Made by a program: the position numbers and the translations under genes. The notes beneath the pieces are model-generated. The model was not told where the DNA came from and made no database searches. It saw only the letters and a list, made by a program, of their open reading frames with translations. DNA of 64,000 nucleotides, taken from Acidobacteriaceae bacterium. Lineage in GTDB: Bacteria; Acidobacteriota; Terriglobia; Terriglobales; Acidobacteriaceae. Shown piece by piece: positions 5,428 to 9,819 of the stretch. Location of the stretch: NCBI GenBank assembly GCA_003151335.1, contig PLXE01000083.1:1-64000 (forward strand), given 5' to 3'. The stretch's first letter is position 1, and each line of letters begins with the position of its first letter.

Positions 5428-6200
5428 CTACAGCGTCTCGTGCGAGGACGCCGCGCGATCATTGAACGTCTTGTAGAAAGTGTCGTAATCACCGCTCGCC
5501 TCGGCGCGGCGCAATTGCTTCACCCGCTCCACACAGATCTCCGTCACCTCGGGGGAGTGCTTCAGGATGTGCATCGCTTCGGTAATGAAATCGTTCAGCG
5601 GCTGCGCGTTCGGATCCGTCAGCTGCCCCGGTCCCAGCAGTTCCGTTTGCACATACGGCGGGATCAGTTCCAGAACCTCCACCGATGTGTGCTGCAGTTG
5701 ATACCGGAGCGATTGCGTATAGGAATGAATCGCGGCCTTTGTGGCGCAGTAGGTCGGAGTCACTGCCAGCGGCACGAATGCCAGCCCGGAAGACACTGTG
5801 TCATGATCGCCGCCCGTGGCTTCGACAGCAGCATAGGCAGCAGCGCCGCTGTCAGACGGATCGGGCCCAGCAGGTTCGTCGCCACGATCGCCTCCGCATC
5901 AGCCAGGCCACCTCCTTGCACCAACTCCGCCCGCATAATGCCAGCGTTAAGAATGACTACATTCAGGGCAGGATAATCACGCTTCATCTGGTTGGCGAAG
6001 CGAACGATCGCGTCGCCGTCGGTGACATCGACCACGGCAGCCTTCATGCCCGGATTGGCCGACACCGTTTCTTCCAGCGCCTTCTTTCCACGGCCGGCAA
6101 TAATCACCTTGTTCCCCTCGGCGTGAAAAGCCTCGGCAAGACCGCGGCCAACCCCCCTTCCGCCGCCGGTAATCAGGATAGTGTTGTCCGTCACTTGCAT
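5428..6200 (-). pseudogene. short-chain dehydrogenase (DltE-like SDR), frameshifted
   Basis: Start ATG 6200 has GGGAGGG just upstream. The first part carries the Rossmann motif TILITGGGRGVGRGLAEAFH, NAGIM and NLLGPIRLTAALLP. The frame then goes out of phase near 5797-5803, where AIMTQCLPG replaces the expected AIMNVSSGLAF. The continuation, starting VSSGLAFVPLAVTPTYCATK, is intact in another frame (5428-5796) with the catalytic YxxxK (Y-C-A-T-K) and C-terminal region. A single +2/-1 shift therefore splits an otherwise complete enzyme of about 255 aa. It lies 179 bp downstream of the peroxiredoxin-like gene on the same strand. A sequencing error would also explain it. Confidence 0.8.
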
Positions 6201-6379
6201 GAGGCCCTCCCTCTCTCCACTACGCCACCGCATCAGGATACCAACGCTACTGGCCCAACTTCCGTATGACACGAAAGTCGATGCTACACGTTCGCGAAGG
6301 CAGCCATCTTGCCATTCGTAAAACCTGCGGCTTGACGAATGGCGGCTCTCGATTCACCGCCTGCCCGTTCTCTCTGTCT

Positions 6380-6910
6380 TCACGGAATCACTGCCAGCAA
6401 TTCCGCAACAGATGCGGTGTCGCCGAACGTCTTGCTCACATGCGCATAGAGGTCGCGATTACCGGGAGCGAAGACGAAACTGCCTCCCAGCTGAAAAGGG
6501 TTTTTTCCCAACTTATGTTGGCGATGGCCGCTCGCACGGGCGCGTTTGCGGGCTACAGCGTTATCGCTCCGAAGAAGGTGGAGCAGCGTAGCGCTGCCTA
6601 ACCCGGCAGCGCGATACGCTTGGCGTTCCTCATCGATAAGCAGCGGAAACGTGATTCCGGTCTCTTCCCGGAAGAACTTGGCGTAGTTCCTATCGCCCAG
6701 TCCAATTGCCGCGATGCGGGCTCCTCGGTGCCTGAATTCCGTTTCGTGTTCGCGCAACTGCGCGACGTGCTCGCGGCAGAAAATTCAGCCATAGTGCCGC
6801 AGAAAAGCCACCACCGCTGGCGCTTCTGCCCAGATAGATCCAAGCGTGAACTGATTGCCTTCGGAATCCGGCAAGCTGATGCCTGCCAGCCTTGCGCTTA
6901 GAGACTCCAT
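6380..6910 (-). CDS. peroxiredoxin-like AhpC/TSA_2 protein with in-frame TGA (candidate selenoprotein)
   Basis: Reading from ATG 6910, the frame runs 176 codons with one interruption, a TGA at 6785-6787 (codon 42). The sequence before it is AGISLPDSEGNQFTLGSIWA, then EAPAVVAFLRHYG; directly after come IFCREHVAQLREHETEFRHR and GARIAAIGLGDRNYAKFFRE. In the PRXL2/AhpC-TSA_2 family this spot is the CxxC redox centre (xRHFGCxFCREH), so the TGA stands for the first catalytic Cys and Cys45 is present. The C-terminal part, with GHRQHKLGKNPFQLGGSFVF, is complete and undamaged. Some thioredoxin-fold families of this type (SelU) are known to use selenocysteine as UxxC. A bacterial SECIS-like hairpin follows at 6758-6779. 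The alternative is a nonsense mutation; the neighbouring SDR is itself broken. Confidence 0.7.
6758..6779 (-). promoter_or_regulatory. SECIS-like hairpin after the TGA codon
   Basis: Starting six bases after the TGA, the mRNA can fold as CUGC, bulged C, GCGA, loop GCACG, UCGC, GCAG: two 4-bp stems, one bulged base and a 5-nt loop that opens with G. Bacterial SECIS elements lie immediately 3' of UGA, with the apical loop about 16-37 nt away; here the loop begins about 15 nt after. GC-rich coding sequence forms such hairpins by chance, so this is only supporting evidence. Confidence 0.35.
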
Positions 6911-7314
6911 CGCCCCGCCATTCTAGCTTGCGGGCAGGGCCGTCTCAACTGTAGATGAATAACGCCGATACCTGCATTCAGAACGATACAGACTCGAGGC
7001 CGCGTGGCGGGGCAGGTCTACCCGCAGACTGTTGCCCAGAAACTTCTGTTTGTGGGCAGGCGAACTGCATGGTCTCGCGTGCCACAATATCAAGCACTTA
7101 GCGGCCCAGATTCACTGGGGCGATTGGGCAAGTCGGAGAATGCCAATCTGAGCAAAGGTCCTTGCTGGCATTGAGCGGACAAAGTGGATTACTTCCGTGT
7201 TGGCCGTCGCTCGGGAGGACTCTCAGCGATTGTCAGCGGCAGATTTCCCACAACCGGACTTCTGGACAAGTTGGCGATCCGACTCCGGACGACAGCCGTT
7301 CTCCTCTGCAGGCC
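6911..7314. other. intergenic region with duplicated 3' flank
   Basis: No gene is seen. The last 60 or so bases (about 7258-7314) match the sequence just downstream of the truncated paralogue (about 11320-11377): both carry CTTC(T/G)GGACAAGTT(G/C)GCGATCC, then CGTTCTCCTCTGCA before the stop codon. The duplication therefore included the 3' flank of the gene. Confidence 0.6.
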
Positions 7315-9681
7315 CTACGGCGCAAAATAGCTGGAGATGTCGAGGATCAGTTGCGTAAGCCCCGACGCATAAGCATTGACCTTTCCGTTGATGCTGGGCA
7401 CGATGGCCATGTTGTCGGAGATGGATCCATCCAGCGCGTTCAGCGTCGAGACCAACGGTTGGGTGGCGCCGTCCGGCCATAGCGTCAGATAGCCCAGCAT
7501 ACCTTGCGGCACCACGCTGGCGTTGAAGACATAGGCCTGCGCCGTGGCGGACGGTCCACAAACACTACCCTCCACGTCCACCGGAGGATTCAGGAGTCCG
7601 CTGAAAGCGCCGCCCTCGCCTGGGCTACGCGTGTCGATGACTCGGCAAGGCGGCACCGTGTAGAGCGAAAGCCCGCCCTGCCCGGTTGGCGCGAAGTAGC
7701 CGTTAATGTCAATGATTAAGTCGGTGTCGTTGGTCGGGTAAACCGAGACATTACCACCCGTACCGGCGGGCACAAGCGCGGCATTGGCGATGATGGTTCC
7801 CGGGATGTCGTTCAAGGTGGAAACCACCGGCCGGGTTTGCCCCGTGGGCCAGGCGGTCATGTAAAACAGCGAGCCGTGGGGCACGACCGAGAAGTTCAAC
7901 GAATACGCAGCGACGCCGGTCGAGGGAATGTTGCAGGTCGTGCTGGCATTGAGGATGGGGAAGGCCCGTTCCTGGCCGCCGGTCAGAAATGGCGGTCCCA
8001 GGCCGGGAGGATAGCTGCTGTGGCGCGTGTCGGCGACGCGACACGGGGTCAGCGGATAAAACGCCAGAGTGGAAGCCGATACCGGCGCGAAGTAACCGTT
8101 GATATCCAGGATCACGTTGGTCGTTTGGGTTACGTAAAGATTGACCGCTCCGTTGGTTCCCGCGCCTACAATGGCCGCGTTGGCCTTGATGCGGCCATCG
8201 ATGGAGTTCAGGGTAGCAACTAGAGGTCTCAGGGTTATGCCCGCGGGCCACATGGTCAAGTAACCCAGCGGACCTAGGGGCACCACCGAGACATTGAGCG
8301 AGTACGCGGTTGCGGTCGCCGGAATGTTGCAGCCGCCCTCTAGCGGAATGGGGAAGGTTTGGAAGGTGCCGCCTTGAATCGGCCCGCCCCCGCCATGTTC
8401 CGGCCGTGTATCCACCAGCCGGCAGGGAGGTACGGTGACGAATTGATACGCGGTAGGAGGCGTATTTGTGATCTCGAACACCGTTCCCTGATTGGAAGTG
8501 CCGCCTGCGACCGTCGTGCCGTAGAGATTGCCGGCGGCATCGAGGATCAAGCCGGCATAGGGATTGGCCCCGTCCGTGCCGCTGAAGCTCTGCAGCAAGA
8601 CCTCTCCCTGGGTGTTAAATCGAAATACCGTCCCTCCGCCATAACTGCCGCCATCGTTGGTGGTGCCGTAGAGATTGCCGGCGCCATCGAGGATCAGGCT
8701 GGCTTGGGGAAGAGATCCGTCCGTGCCGCTGCCGAAGTTATGCAGCACCTGCTCCGTCCAGGTCCCGCCCGCTGCGGGCATCAACTCGAACATCGTCCCA
8801 TGGCCGTAAGTGCCGCCACCGCTGGTCGTGCCGTAGAGGTTGCCGGCGCCATCGAAGATCAGGCCGGCCCAGGGATAGGCCCCGTCCGTGCTGTTGCCGA
8901 AGCTCCACAGCACCTTCTCCGTCCAGGTTCCGCCCGCTGCCGGCGTCAACTCGAACACCGTCCCTAGGTCGTTAGTACCGCCATATGCGGTCGTGCCGTA
9001 GAGATTGCCGGCGGCATCAAAGATCAGCCCGCCATAGGGAATTAGTCCGTCCGTGCCGCTGCCGAAGCTATGCAGCACCTTCTCCGTCCAAGTTCCGCCC
9101 GCTGCGGGCGTCAACTCGAACACCGTCCCGTAGCTGTTGTAAGCGCCGCCTTGGTACGTCGTGCCGTAGAGATTACCGGCGGCATCGATGATCAGGGGGG
9201 CCAAAGGCTCAATCCCGTCCGTGCCGTCGTTGTTGAAGTTATGCAGCACCTTCTCCGTCCAAGTTCCGCCCGCTGCGGGCGTCAACTCGAACACCGTCCC
9301 GTAGCCGTAAGCGCCGCCTAGGTCCGTCGTGCCGTAGAGATTGCCGGCGGCATCGAAGATCAGGCCGGCGTAGGGATGAGTCCCGTCCGCACCGCCGCTG
9401 AAACTATGCAGCACCTTCTCCGTCCAGGTTCCGCCCGCTGCGGGCGTCAACTCGAACAGCGTTCCGCTGTTGGAAGTGCCGCCATCGGAGGTGGTGCCGT
9501 AGAGATTGCCGGCGGCATCGAAGATCAGCCCGGCGTAGGGATTTTCTCCGTCCATGCCGTCGGCGTTGAAGTTATGCAGCACCTTCTCTTCGGCAGTCGC
9601 CCAGGTGCTGGTCACAAACAGGATCGCAGTAAAGATCGTCAGGGTCGCCATCCATCGGATGGAAGGTCTCTTGACTCGCAT
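7315..9681 (-). CDS. exported GloVer tandem-repeat protein
   Basis: 788 aa from ATG 9681, chosen because AAAGAGGA lies just upstream and the N-terminus becomes a clean signal peptide (MRVKRPSIRWMATLTIFTAI...TWATA). Seven repeats of about 55 residues follow (residues ~30-420), each with VLHxFxxxDGxxPYAGLIFD, AAGNLYGTT and GTVFELTPAAGGTW; these GloVer repeats probably form a beta-propeller. The C-terminal half contains three copies of a roughly 120-residue beta module, each opening with PCR(L/V)(V/A/I)DTR and ending ...VILDINGYFAP or ILDISSYFAP. No anchor or enzyme motif is seen; it is presumably a secreted or surface protein. Its 3' end is duplicated at 9705, 10011 and 11378. Confidence 0.85.
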   Translation of the reverse strand: MRVKRPSIRWMATLTIFTAILFVTSTWATAEEKVLHNFNADGMDGENPYAGLIFDAAGNLYGTTSDGGTSNSGTLFELTPAAGGTWTEKVLHSFSGGADGTHPYAGLIFDAAGNLYGTTDLGGAYGYGTVFELTPAAGGTWTEKVLHNFNNDGTDGIEPLAPLIIDAAGNLYGTTYQGGAYNSYGTVFELTPAAGGTWTEKVLHSFGSGTDGLIPYGGLIFDAAGNLYGTTAYGGTNDLGTVFELTPAAGGTWTEKVLWSFGNSTDGAYPWAGLIFDGAGNLYGTTSGGGTYGHGTMFELMPAAGGTWTEQVLHNFGSGTDGSLPQASLILDGAGNLYGTTNDGGSYGGGTVFRFNTQGEVLLQSFSGTDGANPYAGLILDAAGNLYGTTVAGGTSNQGTVFEITNTPPTAYQFVTVPPCRLVDTRPEHGGGGPIQGGTFQTFPIPLEGGCNIPATATAYSLNVSVVPLGPLGYLTMWPAGITLRPLVATLNSIDGRIKANAAIVGAGTNGAVNLYVTQTTNVILDINGYFAPVSASTLAFYPLTPCRVADTRHSSYPPGLGPPFLTGGQERAFPILNASTTCNIPSTGVAAYSLNFSVVPHGSLFYMTAWPTGQTRPVVSTLNDIPGTIIANAALVPAGTGGNVSVYPTNDTDLIIDINGYFAPTGQGGLSLYTVPPCRVIDTRSPGEGGAFSGLLNPPVDVEGSVCGPSATAQAYVFNASVVPQGMLGYLTLWPDGATQPLVSTLNALDGSISDNMAIVPSINGKVNAYASGLTQLILDISSYFAP
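8455..9600. repeat. seven ~165-bp tandem repeats inside the GloVer gene
   Basis: At DNA level the propeller repeats are highly alike (recurring GTGCCGTAGAGATTGCCGGC and CTTCTCCGTCCAGGTTCC blocks about every 165 bp). They are coding repeats with no CRISPR character. The similarity suggests recent expansion or homogenisation. Confidence 0.85.
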
Positions 9682-9704
9682 AGTAGTCCTCTTTAGTACC
9701 GCAG

Positions 9705-9788
9705 TTACGGCGCAAAGTAGCTGGGCATGTCGAGGACCAGTTGGGTGATCCCGGACGAATAGGCATCGAACTTTCCGTTGGTGTTGAC
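9705..9788 (-). pseudogene. 3'-end fragment of a GloVer paralogue
   Basis: Read on the minus strand the fragment gives VNTNGKFDAYSSGITQLVLD then MPSYFAP and TAA (9705-9707). It matches the last 27 residues of the 7315-9681 protein (INGKVNAYASGLTQLILDIS SYFAP). It sits just upstream of that gene's start and nothing else of the gene remains. Confidence 0.8.
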
Positions 9789-9819
9789 AGATTATGCTGT
9801 CGCTCCTGTCGAAAAACAA

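Follow-up and report, generated by a model that had tools for sequence, protein, structure and literature searches.

Bacterial peroxiredoxin (Prx)-like selenoproteins with a UxxC redox motif have long been known (PMC1088965, PMC2398784). SelL, a Prx-like selenocysteine (Sec) protein, carries two Sec residues two residues apart (PMC3316567). In the SelU family, certain proteins use Sec, and these have a Prx-like2 domain (PMC3473315); the two-Sec SelL, like SelU, has been described in eukaryotes (PMC3473315, PMC3316567). For bacteria, published tables list a "Peroxiredoxin-like family protein (AhpC/TSA)" under cd02970 / pfam13911 with the motif UxxS, and their UxxC/UxxU entry is a separate PF00578 "Prx-like thiol:disulfide oxidoreductase" (PMC13188914, PMC9312934). 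A 2006 survey counted four selenoproteins in three families for the Acidobacteriota (PMC1794560). Within the available portions of the open-licence literature searched, we recognized no description of a UxxC AhpC-TSA_2/SelL-related protein in this phylum. Here we describe an acidobacterial gene for a predicted thioredoxin-fold redox protein. Comparison of sequences makes it very probable that an in-frame stop codon encodes selenocysteine in the active site, since many related bacteria have kept both this codon and the hairpin that follows it.

The window, a 64,000-nucleotide stretch of contig PLXE01000083.1 from an Acidobacteriaceae bacterium (assembly GCA_003151335.1), contains on its minus strand a 176-codon frame that runs from ATG 6910-6908 to a terminal TGA at 6382-6380. 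The sole internal stop of this frame is a TGA at 6787-6785 (codon 42; residue context FLRHYG-U-IFCREH), which occupies the first Cys of a CxxC motif (GUIFC) with Cys45 as the partner. The first-pass annotation had described the frame as intact but for this TGA at the first Cys of CxxC, as our rereading confirms, and had put it forward as a candidate selenoprotein, a proposal that is supported by the sel genes, the conserved TGA, and the SECIS-type hairpin presented below. We annotate a selenoprotein gene at 6380..6910 (minus strand; UGA as Sec at codon 42) with a predicted selenocysteine 42 at 6785..6787 (minus strand; UxxC with Cys45). A mechanical list of open reading frames (ORFs) placed the start of the gene 3′ of the TGA, giving a product of 125 aa; any gene caller that treats TGA as a stop only would break this ORF. 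Directly upstream of the gene lies a weak match to a sigma-70-like promoter (TTGAGA-17-TAGAAT; 6920..6948, minus strand), which is putative: the pattern occurs once in the region, against 0.5 matches expected.

The encoded protein matches the Pfam family AhpC-TSA_2 (PF13911) at 61.5 bits (cut-off, 27), above its 49 bits for AhpC-TSA (PF00578). It also passes the NCBIfam model NF040769, "SelL-related redox protein" (130.2 bits; cut-off, 120; residues 12 to 174), and by sequence this is its most specific curated family. A scan of the genome with NF040769 returned four matches, with only the selenoprotein gene above the cut-off (121 bits). All 15 members of A1 match the model at E ≤ 1e-8, and among 10 chosen family members 6 pass its cut-off and 4 (L031, L055, L096, and L109; 108.8 to 118.3 bits) fall slightly short; this mixture of passes and near-misses indicates that the edge of NF040769 cuts through our family set. 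A confident AlphaFold2 model was built from six sequences (mean pLDDT, 94.1; pTM, 0.90). Human prostamide/prostaglandin F (PGF) synthase is both the best sequence match in the PDB (9us9, 2.5e-18) and the best fold match found by Foldseek (1.8e-13); VIA-align gave a Z of 23.2 for 9usa (1.5 Å over 158 residues, 27% identity), the next protein reaching 19.3. C44/C47 of the human enzyme align with Sec42/Cys45 of the window protein.

These results allow the locus to be placed among the described systems. PRXL2/SelU proteins, including human prostamide/PGF synthase, have CxxC in the same place and give the best fold match; they differ in that the window gene has its SECIS within the coding region, and identity to the human enzyme stands at the 27% given above. 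The kinship to PRXL2/SelU suggested in the first-pass annotation thus holds for the fold and the Pfam family, while the most specific curated family is the SelL-related one. With SelL the window protein shares the character of a Prx-like Sec protein (PMC2398784). Three acidobacterial family members (L076, L077, and L078) have two in-frame TGA codons each, giving the UxxU pattern of SelL, and score 153 to 182 bits in NF040769. The window protein, however, has a single Sec, in UxxC (UIFC), and so departs from the two-Sec criterion of SelL proper. SelL is reportedly a diselenide protein. The bacterial selenoprotein listed under cd02970 / pfam13911 falls in the Pfam family that is the window protein's best Pfam match, but that listing gives UxxS and the window protein has UxxC. 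The classical Sec-peroxiredoxins differ in their TxxU motif, the window protein having His39, not Thr, three residues before Sec.

Orthologues were drawn from 150 genomes chosen as relatives and from a pattern scan of a genome collection. In the search of the 150 relatives, the window's own locus and the nine matches ranking next among those listed were read at the site (L022 to L031), and many of the weaker matches among those listed also have TGA. A profile search of the phylum (396 genomes, with eight first-look candidates scored per genome) gave 56 matches at E ≤ 1e-15 across 52 genomes. Among the 69 family loci read, TGA occurs at the site in 55 and a Cys codon in the remaining 14 (50 UxxC, 3 UxxU, 1 UxxP, 1 UxxY, 13 CxxC, and 1 CxxS); L057 was dropped as the same gene as L026, and L032 to L051 and L113 to L118 stand outside all counts. 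The window belongs to a clade of 18 loci (SH-aLRT, 99), all of the Sec form: TGA occupies the codon 42 position in 18 of 18, the window included. The aligned frames of these 18 loci are free of any other stop, and none of the 14 Cys loci read falls in the clade. Clade orthologues are 62 to 75% identical to the window protein (measured for 11 of 17). The genome-collection scan, run with six patterns of which one was written with Cys, found three clade loci, all with TGA, two distant Cys proteins, and no Cys member of the clade, although pattern scans can miss; a plasmid search gave three matches, all distant. The nearest named relatives in the genome-collection scan (L052, from the Bryobacteraceae, L053, and L054) point to an acidobacterial genome. 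The first-pass annotation had proposed reading this codon in close homologues. With TGA at the same codon in these relatives and the aligned frames otherwise open, neither a nonsense mutation confined to this genome nor a read error can account for the stop, in agreement with that annotation's remark that a random nonsense mutation at this codon alone would be a coincidence.

The family tree is of a quick kind, with 25 of its 66 inner branches open; it needs six Sec/Cys changes, or four when only starred branches are trusted. Two relatives have Sec without a Cys partner at +3, namely L031 1579 (UxxY, GUQFYAE), a single locus on a long branch that scores slightly below the NF040769 cut-off, and L100 343 (UxxP, GUVFPRE), which scores above it. 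Possibly new are the acidobacterial UxxC clade, in which every locus read is of the Sec form, its covarying SECIS, and the single UxxY and UxxP relatives.

Synonymous divergence among the 18 clade sequences is high (pS about 0.65), and pN/pS is 0.44 on the 5′ side of the TGA and 0.37 on the 3′ side. This purifying selection 3′ of the TGA argues that the full-length protein matters. Synonymous change dips sharply shortly after the TGA: none of the other 160 nine-codon windows compared goes as low as codons +3 to +11, where pS is 0.217 against a median of 0.669. All 18 clade sequences use TTG for Leu +10, a codon that makes up 42 of 358 (11.7%) of their other Leu codons. The likely cause of this dip is a hairpin.

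We judged candidate SECIS elements against published bacterial criteria, which are a loop of 3 to 9 nt, a stem of 4 to 16 bp, a G at loop position 1 or 2, a distance of 16 to 37 nt from the UGA, and an MFE of ≤ −7.5 (PMC13188914). A predicted bacterial SECIS apical hairpin at 6750..6765 (minus strand), here called the supported hairpin, pairs 6765-6760 with 6755-6750 around the loop AGUU at 6759-6756, which is AGGU in two relatives. Its loop, 6-bp stem, G in the second loop position, and distance of 25 nt from the UGA lie within these criteria, and the folding energies given below are under the MFE limit. Covariation was assessed in 32 Sec forms, chosen from the 55 for a Gln codon at +9 and hence for loop register, with the other 23 uncounted; all 32 rows of this set are distinct, so that the TGA-bearing clade loci all differ in sequence. 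The supported hairpin is paired in 94.3% of cells, against 80.7% after shuffling, and 21 cells are changed on both sides, against 4.8 in shuffled sets (0 of 500 shuffles reach 21). Its covariation score is 0.419, compared with 0.161 for shuffled sets and at most 0.105 when the partner is slid. Two weaker measures were reached by shuffles (pairs with a double change, 62 of 500; further pair types, 35 of 500), and 8 of the 32 sequences do not form the outer pair, 23-38. RNAalifold, unprompted, returned the inner five pairs of the supported hairpin and nothing else (consensus, −8.78). In the single window sequence the 48-nt region folds at −11.2 kcal/mol, of which the supported hairpin is the larger part, and it is no more stable than its shuffles (−13.6; z, 0.89); single-sequence stability is thus unremarkable, and the case for a SECIS rests on comparison. 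Beyond the clade, not every Sec form has the supported hairpin at the same register: it is paired in 55% of cells in the 37 such forms, against 52% in 14 Cys forms.

The first-pass annotation had pointed to a hairpin starting six bases past the TGA, which we take to be one at 6758..6779 (minus strand; positions 9 to 30, numbered from the T of TGA; loop opening with G) that overlaps the supported hairpin. This alternative hairpin is present in the window, but its loop lies 14 nt after the UGA, nearer than the 16 to 37 nt of PMC13188914, and its covariation is not convincing. It is paired in 88.7% of cells, against 86.6% shuffled (12 of 500 shuffles reach this level). Changes on both sides are seen in 4 cells, a count that 82 of 500 shuffles also reach, and the covariation score of 0.156 is reached by 13 of 500, with a single slid version scoring 0.159. 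In the 18 closest sequences the alternative hairpin is paired in 97% of cells and the supported hairpin in 93%; conservation alone therefore cannot separate the two, and it is the wider set and the loop distance that do. Outside the clade, the alternative hairpin is paired in 64% of cells in the 37 Sec forms and 54% in the 14 Cys forms. The earlier expectation of a SECIS-type hairpin after the TGA was correct, but the supported one is at 6765-6750 instead.

The window's genome is a draft of 4.65 Mb in 121 contigs. A search for selA, selB, selC, and selD, also proposed in the first-pass annotation, found all of them, four of four above their cut-offs: tRNA-Sec at 66.6 bits (cut-off, 47), also called by ARAGORN as tRNA-SeC (tca), selB at 398 bits, selA at 559 bits, and selD at 370 bits. 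In 14 control genomes the cut-offs were passed by tRNA-Sec in 5, selB in 2, selA in 1, and selD in 2; a tRNA-Sec match alone is thus not decisive, and the protein genes weigh most. The selD frame of this genome (L018) has an in-frame TGA of its own (KAAG-U-ASK), which points to at least one further likely Sec gene. The window's genome also has a distant second Prx-like frame with one TGA (G000:C80:25215-25484; L113, L130), possibly another selenoprotein.

Across the 52 genomes with a family match, selA is found in 39 of 40 Sec-form genomes and 9 of 12 Cys-only genomes (Fisher P = 0.034, with kinship ignored). It is above the cut-off in 117 of the 150 relatives and in all 10 genomes of that set with a Sec form read (the window's own, G009, G013, G015, G058, G062, G068, G081, G087, and G091). 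Because selA is common among the relatives, its co-occurrence with the Sec form is weak evidence. G248 (L101), which has the TGA form, gave no selA at E ≤ 1e-60; this is a 750-contig draft, and the absence is possibly an assembly gap. Among the matches listed there is no close orthologue in eight other genomes of the window's genus (71 to 99% complete), so the presence of the gene looks patchy. No common neighbour gene was seen at 17 clade loci when the longest neighbouring ORFs were compared by eye. In the window, 7315-9819 (minus strand) encodes a tandem-repeat protein with EKVLHNF...NLYGTT units, and dozens of similar stretches occur across the genome and the genus.

The locus could in principle be a pseudogene, that is, a CxxC protein struck by a nonsense mutation in a decaying stretch. 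Such a reading would draw on the lack of a close orthologue among the matches listed for the eight congeners and on the adjoining short-chain dehydrogenase (SDR) copy, which lies downstream at 5428..6272 (minus strand) and is frameshifted, split into the frames 5760-6272 and 5428-5796. However, contig C78 of this genome (G000:C78, L127) carries an intact SDR paralogue that is 92.7% identical, and its match of 867 columns ends at the SDR, short of the selenoprotein gene. The window's SDR is a redundant copy and not part of the selenoprotein system; its decay is separately explained and has no bearing on the selenoprotein. The first-pass description of the area as decaying therefore applies to the frameshifted SDR and not to the selenoprotein locus. 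Given also that the same TGA without any other stop recurs in 18 of 18 clade loci, and that purifying selection acts on either side of it, we regard a pseudogene as very unlikely. An error of sequencing or assembly that turned a Cys codon into TGA might be suspected in a draft of 121 contigs, but 17 other clade loci, all distinct in sequence, have TGA at the same codon, which excludes a one-off error and leaves this explanation a vanishingly small probability.

The readable frame that runs on past the TGA would also be expected if UGA were read as an ordinary residue, through a reassigned code or plain read-through, rather than as Sec. Against this, the gene's own terminal stop is TGA, the internal TGA stands solely at the redox Cys site, the genome has the sel machinery, and SECIS covariation lies beside the TGA; we consider an ordinary residue extremely improbable. 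Sec insertion is generally inefficient, and the codon might act chiefly as a regulatory stop at which translation mostly terminates, Sec being inserted only when selenium is plentiful and a truncated product or mRNA control being the main role. The frame 3′ of the TGA is nevertheless under purifying selection, which makes a mainly regulatory role highly unlikely.

With very high confidence, we propose that the gene encodes a SelL-related/PRXL2-like (AhpC-TSA_2) thioredoxin-fold selenoprotein of 176 residues, with Sec insertion through SelB and the hairpin and a Sec42/Cys45 redox cycle. The conserved TGA, the Cys homologues, the SECIS covariation, the sel genes, and the predicted fold are all read from sequence; that the cell decodes UGA as Sec, and the chemistry of the protein, are inferred. 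Sec-tRNA would be made by SelA, SelD, and tRNA-Sec; SelB would bind the hairpin at 6765-6750 and insert Sec at codon 42, and translation would stop at the gene's terminal UGA. By likeness to human prostamide/PGF synthase, from which the chemistry, substrate, and donor are proposed, Sec42 would be the attacking residue, oxidized by the substrate (a peroxide, endoperoxide, or disulfide). Sec42 and Cys45 may then close a selenenylsulfide, to be reduced by thioredoxin or a similar donor.

Together, these results extend the selenoproteins of the soil Acidobacteriota by a predicted SelL-related member that is conserved and has a covarying SECIS. More tentatively, and as a picture that we think possible rather than probable, this phylum may hold a large SelL-related family in which Sec prevails, one clade is seen in the Sec form only, and the residue at the second redox position is free to vary (UxxC, UxxU, and, once each, UxxY and UxxP). 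If this is true, some members would function with a single Sec and no resolving partner at +3, and the diselenide SelL and the SelU-like proteins of eukaryotes could be traced from this family as a reservoir in soil. The natural series UxxC / UxxU / CxxC / UxxY / UxxP would offer a test of what Sec and the diselenide contribute to the PRXL2 fold.
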